Assembly: GCA_000635495.1 (NCBI GenBank)
Contig: JFLW01000001.1
Span: 186,001 to 250,000, forward strand
DNA: 64,000 bases
Direction: 5' to 3'
Source of the DNA: Prochlorococcus sp. scB243_495K23
Lineage (GTDB): Bacteria; Cyanobacteriota; Cyanobacteriia; PCC-6307; Cyanobiaceae
Below are positions 5,021 through 39,282 of this stretch, piece by piece. Both the position numbers and the translations under genes were made by a program. Positions within the stretch are counted from its first letter, which is position 1; each line of letters opens with the position of its first letter. The notes below the pieces were generated by a model. The model made no database searches. It saw nothing but the letters and a program-made list of their open reading frames with translations, and was not told the origin of the DNA.

Positions 5021-6688
5021 TTAGCGCTTAAGTTTTTCTAAACGTGAGCCTTTTCTCATACTTAATTGGCACTTTATCCAATCAATACTTATTGGTAGTG
5101 CAAAAAAAAGTGGCAACAATGCAAAATTATTTTGTTTATTGGTTACAAGTAAAGCAGATGCAATTGATAAGCTTCCTATAAGAATTGAATGACCTAAAGT
5201 TTTTTGAGCAGTAAACATTTTTTTGAATTGCCTATCAGACTCTCCCATTCTTATTTGCAATTGTAAATCGCCCTGTTCTAATCTTTCTAAACTTTCATCT
5301 ATTCTTTTGGGAATGCCAACAGCTTTCGATCCTAGTTCACCTACTTGCCTTCCAAATTGGTTAATTAAATCGTTGGGAGTTTGATTATTTGAAGTCATAA
5401 GTTCTATTAAATAAGGCTTTGTAACTGATACAAGGTTAAACCCTGGATCAAGCATTCTACCAACTCCTTCAAAAGTTGATAAAGCTCTCATCACAAAGAT
5501 TAAATCTACTGGTAGTTGAAATGGTGTTTCATAAACAAGTTCATATAAATCTCCAGATAATTTTTCAATAATATTTGGACTAAATGGTGGAGTTAAGGCT
5601 TCTTTAAGCATCAATCTGACTAATCTTCTGACTGGTCCTACATCAATATCTTTTGAAATTAGCCCAGCTTGTTGTAATTGACTGACAAGTGATGAGGCGT
5701 CTCTTAACGCAGCAGCCTTAACCATCCCCCCTAATCTTGTTTGGAGATTATTTGAGATATTGCCCATCATTCCAAAATCATAAAAAATTAATTTACCTTC
5801 ATTTGAAACTGCTAGATTCCCTGGATGAGGGTCTGCATGAAAAAAACCGTAATTTACTAATTGTTTTAGATAACTGATGGCGCCTATTTCTGCAATTTTA
5901 GGTAAATCAATCTCTTGTGATTGTAATTTTTCTAAATCGCTTATTTTTGTTCCTTCTAGATAACTTAAACAAAGGACTTTTTCACTGCTCATATCCCAAA
6001 TTACTTCAGGAACTTCAACATTTTCATCATCAAGAAATTGCTGTCTAAATCTTGCGGCATATTGTGCTTCACAATTAAAATCAAGTTCCTTCATTAGAAC
6101 TTTCCTACACTCTTTAGCAATCTCAACCCAGTTTCTACCTCGACTCCAATTCTTATTTTTCTGCAATAATCCTGCTATTTGTTGCATTATGCCCAAATCT
6201 ATAATAAACAATCCTTTTAAATTAGGTCTTTGAACTTTAAATACTACTTTCTTACCATCTTTTAAAGTCGCCCTATGGACCTGAGCTAGTGATGCTGATC
6301 CAACCGGATCACGTATTATTTGATCTATTTCATTAAACTTAGATCCTAATTCATCTCGTATAGTGTCTTGAACTTGTAAAAATGAAAAATTAGGTACTTG
6401 ATCCTGCAATTTAGACAATTCCTGTATCCAGGTATTAGGAATTAAATCAGGTCTGGCTGATAATAATTGTCCAATTTTAATAAATGCTGATCCAAGCTTT
6501 ATTAATTCATTAGTAAACCACCTAGCTCTTTTAATTTGGACCCTACTTTTTTCATTGTTCTTAGTTTGGAAAATTGTAAATCTAATATTATCTATCCATA
6601 AATTTATTAAAAGCGAAATCAGAGTTATCCAAATAAGAAAGGCCCTCTTAAATTTTTTTAAACGATAATGAAAAATGTAATAACTCAT
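5021..6688 (-). CDS. ABC1/UbiB-family atypical kinase
   Basis: A 555-residue member of the ABC1K/UbiB family, protein-kinase-like ATPases linked to quinone and prenyl-lipid metabolism. Visible family features are the QLLSARPDLIP segment (N-terminal KxGQ-like region), the AxxxQVHxA-type motif reading ASLAQVHRA with VVFKVQRPN, the catalytic HADPHPGNL, and the metal-binding YDFGMMG. Two hydrophobic segments occur: one near the N-terminus and a pair near the C-terminus (about 495-535). The start ATG overlaps the stop of the upstream small ORF by four bases (ATGA), indicating translational coupling. The substrate cannot be read from sequence; plastoquinone or tocopherol-related roles are inferences from plastid relatives. 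Confidence 0.88.
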   Translation of the reverse strand: MSYYIFHYRLKKFKRAFLIWITLISLLINLWIDNIRFTIFQTKNNEKSRVQIKRARWFTNELIKLGSAFIKIGQLLSARPDLIPNTWIQELSKLQDQVPNFSFLQVQDTIRDELGSKFNEIDQIIRDPVGSASLAQVHRATLKDGKKVVFKVQRPNLKGLFIIDLGIMQQIAGLLQKNKNWSRGRNWVEIAKECRKVLMKELDFNCEAQYAARFRQQFLDDENVEVPEVIWDMSSEKVLCLSYLEGTKISDLEKLQSQEIDLPKIAEIGAISYLKQLVNYGFFHADPHPGNLAVSNEGKLIFYDFGMMGNISNNLQTRLGGMVKAAALRDASSLVSQLQQAGLISKDIDVGPVRRLVRLMLKEALTPPFSPNIIEKLSGDLYELVYETPFQLPVDLIFVMRALSTFEGVGRMLDPGFNLVSVTKPYLIELMTSNNQTPNDLINQFGRQVGELGSKAVGIPKRIDESLERLEQGDLQLQIRMGESDRQFKKMFTAQKTLGHSILIGSLSIASALLVTNKQNNFALLPLFFALPISIDWIKCQLSMRKGSRLEKLKR

Positions 6689-7002
6689 TTAATTTGATTA
6701 TTCATAGTTTTATTGACGAGATCAATTTGATTATTGATAGCTGTAATTTCATTTAAAGCTTTTTTTATTTTGGAATCTTGATAAGTATTTGTAGACTCAT
6801 TTTCTTGATTATTTTCGGCTTTTTCCAGTCTTGATGCTTCTTCGATTATGGATTCTTTTAAACTATCAAATTCTTTTTTGAGAATTTCAGGAGCATCCTG
6901 AGCAATATGTGTTGCTTCTTCAATTTTTTCAACCAATATTTCGTTTAATTTTTCGGTTACTTTCTTAATGGCAGCTTTTAAAAGGTAATCAGAGTTGGTC
7001 AT
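6685..7002 (-). CDS. Small coiled-coil protein of unknown function, coupled to UbiB-family kinase
   Basis: The product is 105 residues, highly charged (Lys/Glu-rich), without membrane segments or Cys. Its hydrophobic spacing suggests a long amphipathic helix or coiled coil through most of the length (for example EILVEKIEEATHIAQ). I do not recognise a named family. Its stop codon overlaps the start of the ABC1/UbiB gene by four bases, so the two are probably made together; a partner or adaptor role for the kinase is inference. The start ATG at 7002 is the first in frame. Confidence 0.6.
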   Translation of the reverse strand: MTNSDYLLKAAIKKVTEKLNEILVEKIEEATHIAQDAPEILKKEFDSLKESIIEEASRLEKAENNQENESTNTYQDSKIKKALNEITAINNQIDLVNKTMNNQIK

Positions 7003-7237: not shown

Positions 7238-7245
7238 AAAAGGAG
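7238..7245 (+). promoter_or_regulatory. Strong Shine-Dalgarno that fixes a TTG start
   Basis: AAAGGAG ends 10 bases before the TTG at 7256. Such a good ribosome site is rare in this AT-rich window. It supports the unusual TTG initiation codon, because no ATG or GTG precedes the FAD-binding motif. Confidence 0.75.
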
Positions 7246-7255
7246 TTTTTAAAAA

Positions 7256-8212
7256 TTGGAAATCATCGAGTCAGATGTAGTTATTATCGGAGGAGGCCCA
7301 GCCGGATGTACTTGCGCACTTTATACATCTCGTTCAAATTTAAAGACGGTAATTTTAGATAAAAATCCATCTGTTGGCGCCTTAGCAATAACTCATCAAA
7401 TAGCTAATTATCCAGGGGTTCCTGTTGATATAAGTGGAGAAAAATTACTTACCCTAATGAGAGAACAGGCTGTGCAATACGGCACAGATTATAGAAGAGC
7501 GCAAGTGTTTGGAATAGACGCTAGTGGAGAATGGAAAATGGTTTACACGCCCGAAGGCACTTTTAAAGCTAAAGCACTTGTACTTGCAAGTGGAGCCATG
7601 GGTAGGCCCGCATCATTTAAGGGAGAAGCAGATTTTCTAGGTAAAGGGGTAAGTTATTGTGCTACATGTGATGGGGCTTTTTATAAAAATAGAGAGGTTG
7701 CCGTTGTTGGAGTAAACAAGGAGGCAATTGAAGAGGCAACTGTTCTAACTAAATTCGCATCAACCGTGCATTGGATTACATCAAGTGATCCTAAATCAGA
7801 TAACGAAGAAGCTATGGAATTGATGGATAATTCAAATATAAAACATTGGAGTAGAACAAGATTATTAGAAATATTGGGAGATGATATGGGTGTTAATGGG
7901 GTCGTTGTAAAAAATAAGCAAGAGGAAAATCCTATCAATTTAAATTTAGATGGAGTGTTTGTCTATATGAGTGGTTCGAAGCCGATTACTGATTTTTTAG
8001 GGAATCAAATTGCTTTAAAAGAAGATGGAGGAGTTATTGTGGATGACTTTATGTCTACAAATTCTGATGGTGTATGGGCTATTGGAGATATAAGAAACAC
8101 ACCATTTAAGCAAGCCGTAGTTGCAGCTTCTGACGGATGTATTGCTGCAATGTCAATTGATAGATATTTAAATAGTAGAAAAAATATTAGAGTGGATTGG
8201 ATTCATTCTTAA
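7256..8212 (+). CDS. Thioredoxin-reductase-like flavoprotein lacking NADPH motifs (DTR/DDOR-like)
   Basis: A 318-residue flavoprotein of the low-molecular-weight thioredoxin reductase fold. Seen: the FAD dinucleotide motif IIGGGPAGCTCA (10-21), the redox-active CATC (135-138), and the C-terminal FAD block GVWAIGDIRNTPFKQ. Where NADPH-dependent enzymes have GGGDSAxEE and HRRxxxR, this protein has VVGVNKEAIEEA and WITSSDPKS, so both the glycine/serine motif and the 2'-phosphate-binding arginines are gone. It ends in a short extension with a Trp (DWIHS). Pyridine-nucleotide-independent relatives (called DTR or DDOR) are known from Gloeobacter and marine cyanobacteria, some with ferredoxin as donor. 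I infer the same class here. The electron donor and partner are not visible. It diverges from the UbiB pair and converges with sbtB. Confidence 0.85.
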   Translation: MEIIESDVVIIGGGPAGCTCALYTSRSNLKTVILDKNPSVGALAITHQIANYPGVPVDISGEKLLTLMREQAVQYGTDYRRAQVFGIDASGEWKMVYTPEGTFKAKALVLASGAMGRPASFKGEADFLGKGVSYCATCDGAFYKNREVAVVGVNKEAIEEATVLTKFASTVHWITSSDPKSDNEEAMELMDNSNIKHWSRTRLLEILGDDMGVNGVVVKNKQEENPINLNLDGVFVYMSGSKPITDFLGNQIALKEDGGVIVDDFMSTNSDGVWAIGDIRNTPFKQAVVAASDGCIAAMSIDRYLNSRKNIRVDWIHS

Positions 8213-8233: not shown

Positions 8234-8515
8234 CTAAAGGGGTGTTGCTTCAGAAATATAAGCGACTCCTCCGTAATAGCTCAAATCGTCCCTGATGTTA
8301 TCTCTCATTTTATCTATTAATTCTTGCTCGCAAAAAACAATTACATGAGCATTCGCTCCTAATCCTGTAAATTCCATATCTTCAGTAACAACTCTTTCAG
8401 GTCCTCTGCCTGTAGCGTGTTTCATAATTGTATATCCAGGAACATTAGCTTTTTCTAATGTTTTAATGATTGCATCTAGTTCTCTTTCACTAAATATCAA
8501 GTCTAATCTTTTCAT
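8234..8515 (-). CDS. sbtB: PII-like signalling protein SbtB
   Basis: A 93-residue PII-fold protein. The core MKRLDLIFSERELDAI, followed by a T-loop-like GYTIMKHATGRGPERV and VIVFCEQELIDKM, matches SbtB, the adenyl-nucleotide-sensing partner of the bicarbonate transporter SbtA. It lies two bases downstream of sbtA on the same strand. Compared with the roughly 110-residue Synechocystis protein it ends early (YISEATPL) and lacks the C-terminal loop with its Cys pair, so redox or apyrase control through that loop should be absent. Classical GlnB is excluded by the short length and missing Tyr-51 T-loop region. Confidence 0.85.
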   Translation of the reverse strand: MKRLDLIFSERELDAIIKTLEKANVPGYTIMKHATGRGPERVVTEDMEFTGLGANAHVIVFCEQELIDKMRDNIRDDLSYYGGVAYISEATPL

Positions 8516-8517
8516 TT

Positions 8518-9516
8518 TTATAAAGGGGATAGTGGGATAATAGTATTTACTAAACTCATATATATGGGAATGCCGAGAACTATATTGAATGGAAAAGTTA
8601 GACCTAGTGTAGTTGAAATATAATAACTAGATTTAGCTTCTGGAACCGTCATCCTCATTGCTGCAGGAACTGCTAAATAAGAGGCGCTTGCACATAAAAC
8701 CACAAATAAAAGTGCGTTGCCAGGTCCTAAAGATAAAAATCTTGCAACGAAAACACCAATAAATGCGTTAAATAAAGGCATAAAAATGGCAAATCCAATC
8801 AAGAATGAACCTGCATTTTTCAGCCTCGGCAATCTTTGAGCAGCAACTATTCCCATATCTAACAAGAAGAAGCATTCTGCTCCATAGAATAATTGTCCAG
8901 TAAAAGGCTCCATTTTTTCAATTCCTGAGGGATTACTGGAAGCAGTGAGAAATCCTACAATCAAGCTTGAGAGCAATAAATAAACTGATCCATTCAAAAG
9001 TGATTCGTGTAATATTGCACTTAGATGCATTTTTCTTGATTTTGGTCTATTTTTTGGAGCTGCAAATTTCACAAGTAATAATCCAACAATTATTGCAGGA
9101 GATTCCATTAAAGCTAAAGCGCCAACCATAAACCCATCAAAAGCTATTTTTTGACTTTCTAAAAAACTTTCTGCAGAGATAAATGTAACAGCACTAATTG
9201 AACCGTATGCTGCTGCTATCGCGGCTGAATTAAAGACATCAAACTTAAATCTTAAAATTAAAAATCCAATCAGTGGGATTACTAGTGACATCAGTATTGC
9301 AGCACTTAAAGTAGGCAATACTTGATCTGTAAAACCACTTTTCTGTATCTCTATACCTCCTTTAAAACCAATAGCTAGGAGTAGGTATAAGGAGAAGAGT
9401 TTAGGTAATGGAGCTGGTATCTCTAAATCAGATTTAAAGAGTACTGATATTGCTCCAATCAAAAAGAAAAGAACTGGCGGGGCTAATACATTTTGCAGAA
9501 TTGGACTTATTTCCAT
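8518..9516 (-). CDS. sbtA: Sodium-dependent bicarbonate transporter SbtA
   Basis: A 332-residue membrane protein with about ten hydrophobic segments in two related halves, typical of the SBT (DUF897) family. The N-terminal PVLFFLIGAISVLFKSDLEIP and LLAIGFKGGIEI are family signatures. SbtA is a high-affinity sodium/bicarbonate symporter of the plasma membrane that feeds the carboxysome. It lies between the SulP transporter gene (6-base gap) and sbtB (2-base gap), all minus strand, so this is one carbon-uptake operon. It is shorter than freshwater SbtA (about 370), mainly in the central cytoplasmic loop after LLVKFAAPKNRPKS. Confidence 0.88.
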   Translation of the reverse strand: MEISPILQNVLAPPVLFFLIGAISVLFKSDLEIPAPLPKLFSLYLLLAIGFKGGIEIQKSGFTDQVLPTLSAAILMSLVIPLIGFLILRFKFDVFNSAAIAAAYGSISAVTFISAESFLESQKIAFDGFMVGALALMESPAIIVGLLLVKFAAPKNRPKSRKMHLSAILHESLLNGSVYLLLSSLIVGFLTASSNPSGIEKMEPFTGQLFYGAECFFLLDMGIVAAQRLPRLKNAGSFLIGFAIFMPLFNAFIGVFVARFLSLGPGNALLFVVLCASASYLAVPAAMRMTVPEAKSSYYISTTLGLTFPFNIVLGIPIYMSLVNTIIPLSPL

Positions 9517-9522
9517 AAATTA

Positions 9523-11175
9523 TTAGGCTATTTCATTTAGAGCAGTTTCTAAAGCTTCTTTTCTTGTTTCAATAATCCCTTCAACTCCAAACTTAGCTAA
9601 TCTATCTTTTACTTTTTCATTAGCACCTGCAACAAATGCTTTTCTGGAATTATTTTTTGCTTCTTGCATCATATCTTCTATTGCCAGAGTCGCGGTCACT
9701 CCAAGTCTTGGAACATCAGTGATATCTAATATCAAAACTTTGTAGTTTCTTACAAGCATCATTCTCTCAGATATACCTTTAGCTGCTCCAAAACTAAGTG
9801 GTCCTTTAAGTCTAAATAGCATTACTTCTCCTGAACATCTATCTAGTAGTGCTTTTTCATCAGCAGGTAATGCATTTTTAGCTTGATCATCTTTTGATAA
9901 AGGATTATCCTCATCCATACCTTCTAGTTGAGTTTCAGTTATTGAATCGATAGTGAGCATATTTGCTATGAATACACCTACTAAAACTGCCCAAATTAAA
10001 TCCCAAAAAACTGTCATCAAAAGTACGCCATACATTACTACTGAAGTTTTTAAAGATAATTTGTGAGCCCTCCTTAAAAATCCCCAATCAATAATATCTA
10101 AACCTACTTTTATAAGGATTCCTGCTAGTAACGCAGTTGGTATTTGCTCAGCTAAAGGTCCCGCACCAACTAAAACTATCAACAATACAACTGAGTGAAC
10201 CATACCAGAGATAGGAGTTGATCCTCCAGATTTAACATTTATGACTGTTCTCATTGTTGCTCCTGCTCCAGGTAAACCTGAAAAAAGACCTGCAACTGCA
10301 TTTCCTATCCCTTGACCAATAAGTTCTCTATCAGAATTATGTTTTGTTTGAGAGATATTGTCTGCTACTAGAGATGTCAGTAAGGAGTCAATTGCGCCAA
10401 GTACTGCTAGGACTAATCCTGCTTTGAAAATAATTGGGAAATATTGATTAAAACTTGGGAAATTTAAAGATGGAACTCCCCTTGGAATTTCTCCAATTCT
10501 ATCAATTGCTCCATCTCCAAAAATTAATATTGATATTGGAGTAACTATTAAGAGGGCCAAGAGAGGAGAAGGTACCCACTGACTTATTTTTCTAGGAGTA
10601 AGGAATACTATACCTAGTGTCATTATTGCAACTCCAATAGCAGCACCATTTGGCTGGAAATTTGAAAATACAGTAGTTAAAGATTCGACTACTCCACCTC
10701 GAGTGCTAATTCCAAGTAATGGTCCAATCTGAAGCGCAATGATTATTACTCCAATACCAGACATAAATCCTGAAACAACAGAATATGGAACTAAAGTAAT
10801 GTATTTACCTAGTTTTAGAATCCCGAATAATATTTGCAGTAAGCCGCCAATGACTACCGCTGCCATAACTAAAGGTAAAATTTGTCCTGCAGAAAGATCT
10901 CTTGGAACCCCTACTGCGGCCAAGCCTGCTACTACACCTGCAACAGTTACACTCATGGGACCGGTAGGTCCACTAACTTGAGCAGGTGTTCCGCCGAATA
11001 ATGCGGCTAAAAAACCAACTACTACTGCTCCATAAAGTCCATAAATTGCTCCGCCAGGTCCTAACGCAGCATTTCCAAAAGCAAGAGCGAGAGGTAAAGC
11101 CACTACTGCGGCTGTGATGCCTCCTAGAATATCGCCTCTTACATTTTTCAGATGAAATCCATTAATTATGTTCAA
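9523..11175 (-). CDS. bicA: SulP-family anion transporter, BicA-like bicarbonate transporter
   Basis: A SulP/SLC26 carrier of about 550 residues, with a membrane domain (to about residue 405) and a C-terminal STAS domain (from about 445, VMLFRLKGPLSFGAAKGI). The N-terminal GGITAAVVALPLALAFGNAAL and QVSGPTGPMSVTVAG are SulP signatures. Cyanobacterial members include BicA, a sodium-dependent bicarbonate carrier; co-location with sbtA-sbtB supports bicarbonate over sulfate. No ATG is available. A TTG at 11173-11175 is preceded by GAGGAAA at good spacing and gives MNIINGFHLKN. A TTG at 11190 would add five residues but has no ribosome site. First gene of the carbon operon. Confidence 0.82.
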   Translation of the reverse strand: MNIINGFHLKNVRGDILGGITAAVVALPLALAFGNAALGPGGAIYGLYGAVVVGFLAALFGGTPAQVSGPTGPMSVTVAGVVAGLAAVGVPRDLSAGQILPLVMAAVVIGGLLQILFGILKLGKYITLVPYSVVSGFMSGIGVIIIALQIGPLLGISTRGGVVESLTTVFSNFQPNGAAIGVAIMTLGIVFLTPRKISQWVPSPLLALLIVTPISILIFGDGAIDRIGEIPRGVPSLNFPSFNQYFPIIFKAGLVLAVLGAIDSLLTSLVADNISQTKHNSDRELIGQGIGNAVAGLFSGLPGAGATMRTVINVKSGGSTPISGMVHSVVLLIVLVGAGPLAEQIPTALLAGILIKVGLDIIDWGFLRRAHKLSLKTSVVMYGVLLMTVFWDLIWAVLVGVFIANMLTIDSITETQLEGMDEDNPLSKDDQAKNALPADEKALLDRCSGEVMLFRLKGPLSFGAAKGISERMMLVRNYKVLILDITDVPRLGVTATLAIEDMMQEAKNNSRKAFVAGANEKVKDRLAKFGVEGIIETRKEALETALNEIA

Positions 11176-11397
11176 AGATGCTTTCCTCAAAATAAATACT
11201 TAACTAAAAGATATTATCTCTAAATGATGTAAATTTGTGAAAAATGAAGATTGTGCAAAATATTTTTGTAACTTTTTTTGCTCTTATTAAATAAATTTTA
11301 GTTAATTTTCCTGAACAAAAGTAGTCTCTGATTGATTTATGTGCGAGGCAAGCGATTAATGTATTAGGTAAATATTTTTTAATTTAATAATATTCAA

Positions 11398-38598: not shown

Positions 38599-38736
38599 AA
38601 TTAGATTTCGGAAATCAAAGTAAATTTTGATAACTATTCATTCCTTATTTTATCAGTTGATTAAAAGCTTATAGATTTTAATTCTCTTTATTTGTTTAAC
38701 TTATTTAAGATAACTTTAGTTAGTGTTACCTTAATA

Positions 38737-39282
38737 GTGCAATCTGAAAATCGAGAGCCAATTTTTAAGACAAATTTAAAAATAATGCTCGTTTTGATTA
38801 TATCTATTGTTATTATTTCAATGCTTTTGTTTAAAAATCTATTTTTTAAATCAACTTATCTTCTAAAGAGTTTTGGAGAATTATCTGTTGACCCTGAAAT
38901 AGCTTTTACAAATAATAAGCCTACGTTTTTGGAATTTTATGCTGAGTGGTGTGAAGTCTGCAAAGAAATGGCTCCACAAGTTTCTGCTTTTAAAGATGAA
39001 TACGAAAAAGATATTAATTTTGTTTTTTTAAATGTTGATAATCAAAAATGGTCTAATTACATCCAAAAGTTTGCTGTCAACGGGATTCCTCAAGTTAATC
39101 TTTTTGATAAAAAGGGTAATCTAATATCTACTTTTATTGGTAAACAAGATGAAATGAAAATAAGAAAATCCATTAATAATTTAGAGAAAGAGGAGAAACC
39201 TTATGAGGAAATTATTAATGCTGAATTTTCAACAATTCAAGAAAATAAAAATTATGAGGTTAATCCTCGTAGTCATGGTTAA
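38737..39282 (+). CDS. txlA: Membrane-anchored thioredoxin-like protein (TxlA/HCF164-like)
   Basis: One N-terminal membrane helix (IMLVLIISIVIISMLLF) followed by a thioredoxin domain with active site EWCEVCKEM. NGIPQVNLFDKKG carries the conserved cis-Pro. HCF164/TxlA-type proteins pass reducing equivalents across thylakoids for cytochrome b6f and other assembly; this role is inferred. I choose GTG at 38737 as the start; a TTG at 38692 and an ATG at 38788 are alternatives. It converges with thyX, 3 bases apart. Confidence 0.8.
   Translation: MQSENREPIFKTNLKIMLVLIISIVIISMLLFKNLFFKSTYLLKSFGELSVDPEIAFTNNKPTFLEFYAEWCEVCKEMAPQVSAFKDEYEKDINFVFLNVDNQKWSNYIQKFAVNGIPQVNLFDKKGNLISTFIGKQDEMKIRKSINNLEKEEKPYEEIINAEFSTIQENKNYEVNPRSHG

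Follow-up and report, generated by a model that had tools for sequence, protein, structure and literature searches.

Which electron donor serves a protein that resembles NADPH thioredoxin reductase (NTR) and lacks both NADPH motifs is the question raised by the gene at positions 7256 to 8212 of the window, the 64,000-nucleotide stretch of Prochlorococcus sp. scB243_495K23 DNA that we analyzed. An earlier note on this DNA had described intact FAD motifs and CATC, an NADPH loop reading VVGVNKEAIEE, and a segment reading WITSSDPKS, and all of these were found again in the translation and the alignment. The features on which the following argument draws are given below, with their basis in parentheses.

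7238 to 7245, plus strand: strong Shine-Dalgarno-like AAAAGGAG, 10 bases 5' of the TTG start
7250 to 7252, plus strand: in-frame TAA two codons 5' of the TTG, which fixes the start
7256 to 8212, plus strand: predicted FFTR gene, 318 amino acids, TTG start (468.7 bits to 5j60/6xtf, 66% identity over 317 amino acids)
7289 to 7306, plus strand: first FAD motif GGGPAG, residues 12 to 17 (translation, alignment)
7658 to 7669, plus strand: redox-active CATC, C135 and C138, numbered as in Gloeobacter violaceus FFTR (translation, alignment)
7709 to 7735, plus strand: former NADPH loop, GVNKEAIEE in place of GxGxxA, residues 152 to 160 (translation, alignment)
7772 to 7798, plus strand: former HRRxxxR segment, WITSSDPKS, residues 173 to 181 (translation, alignment)
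8084 to 8095, plus strand: second FAD motif GDIR, residues 277 to 280 (alignment)
8171 to 8209, plus strand: FFTR-type C-terminal tail NSRKNIRVDWIHS with Trp315 (alignment, comparison with 5j60)

The TTG start is effectively forced, because the TAA lies just upstream in frame and the next in-frame ATG, GTG, or TTG comes only at codon 68, within the FAD domain. Rfam at gathering scores found two tRNAs only in the window. Promoter-like matches were not in excess (5, versus a mean of 7.7 in shuffles), and the two terminator-like matches (mean of 0.7 in shuffles) both lie on the minus strand inside the FFTR gene.

Closest relatives and the missing NADPH motifs

The best solved relative of the window protein is the G. 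violaceus enzyme (5j60/6xtf), to which it aligns without gaps and with C135, C138, and W315 equally numbered. The other scores were 191.7 bits for the best NTR structure, 118.9 bits for 6gna/6gnb, and 76 and 66 bits for the DDOR sequences; we take 6GNA to be a clostridial FFTR, and 5JRI/5K0A (Slr0600) to be DDOR. According to a table in PMC8469568, 6GNC and 6GND are clostridial FFTR and 5N0J/5ODE are G. violaceus DDOR; the same source describes 6XTF as G. violaceus FFTR in complex with ferredoxin, Fdx1, and PDB 5J60 is the G. violaceus enzyme first named DTR and currently named FFTR (PMC9025218, PMC8469568). The earlier note had linked the protein to NAD(P)H-independent flavoproteins of two kinds, DTR and DDOR, and only the DTR part of that link holds. 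Since the window protein belongs with DTR (= FFTR), ferredoxin is its likely donor, and the guess of the earlier note that electrons come from ferredoxin is borne out by this nearest relative, together with the papers on FFTR.

The best NCBIfam match of the protein, TIGR01292 (thioredoxin-disulfide reductase), would favor an NADPH-dependent reductase whose NADPH residues are unusual, although its 306.7 bits fall under the curated cut-off of 343.45. We aligned the window protein and G. violaceus FFTR with 28 further FFTR rows, drawn from the window genus, other genera of the family, and families f17, f11, and f3, and with NTR and NTRC rows. CATC, the FAD motifs, and the DW tail are present, and GxGxxA and HRR are absent, in the window protein, in G. 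violaceus FFTR, and in 28 of the 28 further FFTR rows. E. coli TrxB and three NTR-like rows (L184 to L186) retain GGGxxA and HRR in the same alignment columns, and the NTRC of the window's own genome retains GGGDSA but has VRS where HRR is expected. The motifs GxGxxA and HRRxxxR, which would mark an NTR, are both lacking in the window protein, and its TIGR01292 score is too low; the same two motifs are used in PMC10880999 for telling NTR from FFTR. In a tree of FFTR, NTR, and NTRC rows, with no DDOR, the 30 FFTR rows split from the 5 NTR/NTRC rows with support of 100/100 (L187, with 3 residues in the alignment, was omitted from the trees).

The open frame and the equal absence of the NADPH motifs across FFTR relatives speak for neither chance nor decay but for a genuine feature, and because no aligned FFTR row retains these motifs, their "loss" is a character of the family. 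The absence noted earlier therefore stands, but not as an oddity of this gene. The 66%-identical G. violaceus enzyme is among the FFTRs reported in PMC12796991 as unable to use NADPH, and an NADPH-dependent reductase is, on this evidence, very improbable. The AlphaFold2 model of the window protein had a mean pLDDT of 33, with an alignment of 18 rows at 99-100% identity that drew on 17 of the 80 loci found among the genome contigs, and was discarded; the proposed lack of an NADPH pocket instead rests on the sequence and on the 66%-identical solved structure.

DDOR deserves consideration because it is, besides FFTR, the cyanobacterial NTR relative that lacks an NADPH site (PMC9025218). If the window protein were a DDOR, a second FAD would occupy the former NADPH site and electrons would flow from thiols to the flavin, making the protein an oxidant or a sensor. 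The closest sequence, however, is FFTR at 468.7 bits, versus 76 and 66 bits for DDOR (a comparison of scores, as the tree holds no DDOR rows). A passage of PMC9025218 reports DDOR from all cyanobacterial groups but Prochlorococcus and describes it as lacking the thioredoxin-binding motifs defined there (GKG/FF), yet GKG is present in the aligned window protein. If "FF" is the pair after CATCDG, it reads AF in the window protein and likewise in G. violaceus FFTR. We consider a DDOR highly unlikely, and the sensor or disulfide-oxidoreductase role once suggested for this gene finds no support.

We are left with FFTR, which the window protein almost certainly is, passing electrons from reduced ferredoxin through FAD and CATC to thioredoxin. 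Judged by its sequence, the gene at 7256 to 8212 is a ferredoxin-driven FFTR of the kind already described in the Prochlorococcus group and no new kind of enzyme. The finding is known biology, given the accounts of FFTR in Prochlorococcus in PMC9025218 and PMC12796991.

FFTR and FTR across genomes

The window's own genome (1.62 Mb in 124 contigs, 99.6% complete) was searched for other routes of thioredoxin reduction. Neither the catalytic subunit FTRC (PF02943) nor the variable subunit FTRV (PF02941) of FTR was found in it, with control searches positive for both in Synechococcus elongatus. Its 18 Pyr_redox_2 matches include no free NADPH thioredoxin reductase; the five strong ones are FFTR, NTRC, and three others that we take, by eye, to be lipoamide dehydrogenase-like, glutathione reductase-like, and NDH-2-like. 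No NADPH-linked thioredoxin-type reductase was seen in this genome other than NTRC, in which NTR and thioredoxin are joined in a single 458-amino-acid frame. Five thioredoxin-domain matches, one of them a 108-amino-acid WCGPC protein, and four Fer2 matches were also found, the best of the latter being a 99-amino-acid ferredoxin that we presume to be plant-type and to pair with FFTR. The window itself (38692 to 39282, plus strand) encodes a thioredoxin-like protein whose active site reads WCEVC and which, judged by eye, has a hydrophobic stretch at its N terminus.

The best 80 named relatives of the window FFTR are 98-99% identical to it and mostly labeled Prochlorococcus, with three labeled Synechococcaceae (L134, L146, L152). 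Within the genus, 118 of 121 genomes gave a match, six of them with no more than an NTRC-like E-value (1e-47 to 1e-52), which leaves FFTR in 112 of 121. The nine genomes without FFTR (three with no match and those six) are all less than 90% complete, so that FFTR is present in 41 of the 41 genus genomes that are at least 90% complete.

Across the 201 genomes of the family, FTRC was found in 112 and FFTR in 88: 75 genomes have FFTR only, 99 FTR only, 13 both, and 14 neither. Overall, one of FFTR and FTR mostly stands in for the other in this family; by these tallies, at least one of the two is present in 130 of 131 near-complete genomes, and a single genome has neither. In the 13 genomes with both, FFTR is 55-65% identical to the window copy. 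Where FTR is present as well, the FFTRs (L176 to L183) sit on long end branches (2.27 for L182), as if constraint had been relaxed or changed. G144, of genus g25 and 95% complete, carries a diverged FFTR (L175/L277; 64% identity to the window copy, ATG start), with neither FTR subunit found, and possibly represents a second, separate loss of FTR within the family. In other families, the FFTR-bearing genomes G386, G596, and G321 have FTRC. No FTRV was detected in G386 or G271, although both have FTRC, and a missing FTRV alone therefore proves little.

Two origins of FFTR in the family, or horizontal transfer, were suspected because the Synechococcus-type copies of the family are less similar to the window FFTR (55-65% identity) than those of genera g80 and g188 of f17 (69-72%; one partial copy there, 66%). 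We examined this with a second, 39-row tree, from which L183 was omitted and which took 8 of the 15 full-length f17 rows and 4 of the 6 full-length f11 rows. All 25 family rows fall on one side of a branch (support of 86/95, not starred), which leaves the published single origin of FFTR uncontradicted, and we reject the two-origin suggestion. A long branch (length 1.06, support of 100/100) leads to the Synechococcus-type rows and G144. A phage-borne FFTR was likewise considered and none was found: a scan of viral contigs gave no relative, and the 77 of 50,697 phage records that match all do so at less than 60% identity (at best 38.7% among the 20 matches listed).

Start codon, ribosome site, and neighboring genes

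The earlier note had also pointed to a rare strong ribosome site with a TTG start. As a control, we took the 121 of 367 reciprocal ortholog pairs between 400 kb of the congener G015 and G130 that have one unambiguous start each (the FFTR pair is not among them), and scored a Shine-Dalgarno site as strong if GGAG, GAGG, or AGGA occurred at -20 to -4. The ribosome site is indeed of a rare type, strong sites preceding 7 of the 121 starts in G015 and 15 of the 121 in the G130 partners, but the TTG is not, as 23 of the 121 starts in G015 are TTG.

The note had further held that the translation level seems selected, and here the conservation of the two signals is relevant. Such a setting, additional to the FFTR identity of the protein, would consist of the TTG and the strong Shine-Dalgarno site acting together. 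TTG is found at 151 of 152 FFTR loci above 70% identity (many near-identical and some genomes counted twice), at 26 of 27 loci at 71-83% identity, and, outside the family, at 13 of the 15 loci from f17 and all 6 from f11. ATG starts the copies of Synechococcus type and that of G144 (9 of 9), and also the f3 locus. Only three start-codon changes are placed on the 39-row tree (38 rows coded), whose 27 TTG/GTG rows span 6.29 amino-acid changes per column, whereas TTG in general is kept in 12 of 23 G015-G130 pairs, two of these 12 being 98-99% identical and probably RNA-gene artefacts. The Shine-Dalgarno-like motif precedes FFTR at 123 of 125 loci above 90% identity and at 24 of 27 loci at 71-83% identity. 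It is kept less widely than the TTG, being missing from 3 of those 27 loci and from 9 of 15 f17 loci (among them 7 of the 13 that start with TTG), and present at 6 of 6 f11 loci and before 1 of 9 Synechococcus-type ATG copies. In addition, the GTG start of enolase near FFTR is conserved in 14 of 15 loci, and a second such gene nearby, the BicA-like gene (9523 to 11175, minus strand), has a TTG/GTG start with a Shine-Dalgarno-like site in 13 of 17 loci. A conserved non-ATG start is therefore not peculiar to FFTR, and translational control is no more than a possibility. The rare ribosome site and the widely kept TTG speak for a selected translation level, and the narrower conservation of the site and the GTG of enolase speak against it; the pattern is a weak to moderate hint at tuned translation. 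Selection may have preserved the TTG across three families of cyanobacteria and the ribosome site across most of the Prochlorococcus lineage, but we regard a deliberate translational setting as doubtful. It is similarly unlikely, though conceivable, that the two signals would fix the amount of this enzyme, the only thioredoxin reductase in Prochlorococcus, or couple it to the light or redox state.

The neighborhood was compared at 20 divergent family loci and at 10 loci outside this lineage (10-20 kb each for the latter). Convergent P-II-like and Sbt_1 genes follow FFTR at 16 of the 20 family loci, and enolase and an ABC1 kinase precede it at 13 of 20; in G148, G189, G133, and G173, the bicarbonate genes are not at the place after FFTR. 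At the 10 outside loci, none of 13 other genes tested lay beside FFTR. In the window, the bicarbonate uptake block (P-II-like protein, Sbt_1 transporter, BicA-like transporter) lies at 8234 to 11190 on the minus strand, convergent to FFTR. Enolase, ABC1, Sbt_1, P-II, and the BicA-like protein were named from Pfam/NCBIfam matches, and the neighbor names sbtB, hemB, and mutS2 are our assumption, in part from adjacency. Between the ABC1 kinase and FFTR, a 105-amino-acid protein with no Pfam/NCBIfam match (6685 to 7002, minus strand) has counterparts that are 30-41% identical to it in 6 of the 20 divergent loci of the family.

Proposed mechanism and comparison with known systems

We infer that the Prochlorococcus FFTR works as G. 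violaceus FFTR does. Sequence, motifs, genome content, and distribution come from our analysis, and ferredoxin use, domain movement, and Trp315 stacking from papers on the G. violaceus enzyme. Two reduced [2Fe-2S] ferredoxins would each pass one electron to the FAD; the disulfide domain, a remnant of the NADPH domain that would carry the CxxC without binding NADPH, would swing in, and the reduced FAD would then reduce the C135-C138 disulfide; the domain would swing out again, and the dithiol would reduce TrxA via thiol exchange. For the G. violaceus enzyme, an account in PMC12796991 reports ferredoxin use, two single-electron steps, a domain swing with W315 displaced, and potentials of -448 mV for FAD, -424 mV for Fdx1, and -356 mV for the disulfide. 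Trp315 is reported to stack on the FAD of the partner subunit, and the tail with the conserved Trp is described as a feature of cyanobacterial FFTR (PMC8469568, PMC12796991).

Because neither FTR nor a free NTR was found in the genome, light-linked thioredoxin reduction in this cell would depend on FFTR. This is consistent with passages of PMC9025218 that report FTR absent from Gloeobacter and Prochlorococcus, with FFTR there instead, and with the description of FFTR as the sole thioredoxin-reducing system of Prochlorococcus (PMC9025218, PMC12796991). A gene that resembles NTR is in this way confirmed as, almost certainly, the iron-sulfur-free, ferredoxin-driven reductase on which redox control is believed to rest in a phototroph that is very abundant in the ocean. 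What is new here is of modest weight: the near-complete mutual replacement of FTR and FFTR among 201 genomes of one family, the seemingly independent lack of FTR in G144, and the long-kept TTG.

Among known systems, G. violaceus FFTR/DTR is most like the window protein, with 66% identity, the same positions of C135, C138, and W315, and both NADPH motifs missing in both. It differs in coming from another organism, and the biochemistry is that of the G. violaceus copy, whereas the window copy, with its TTG start, is characterized from sequence. P. marinus SS120 FFTR, named in the legend of Fig. 3 (panel B) of PMC9025218, is an FFTR from the same organism group and, by expectation, an ortholog of the window gene. 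Clostridial FFTR (6GNC, 6GND; TrxB1 of C. difficile in PMC10880999) is likewise a flavin thioredoxin reductase without GxGxxA and HRRxxxR, but it reaches only 109-119 bits and has chains of 288-294 amino acids. DDOR shares the NTR fold, the CxxC, and the missing NADPH site, but is reported to hold two FADs per subunit (PMC9025218), and, at 76 and 66 bits only, it stands well apart from the window protein.
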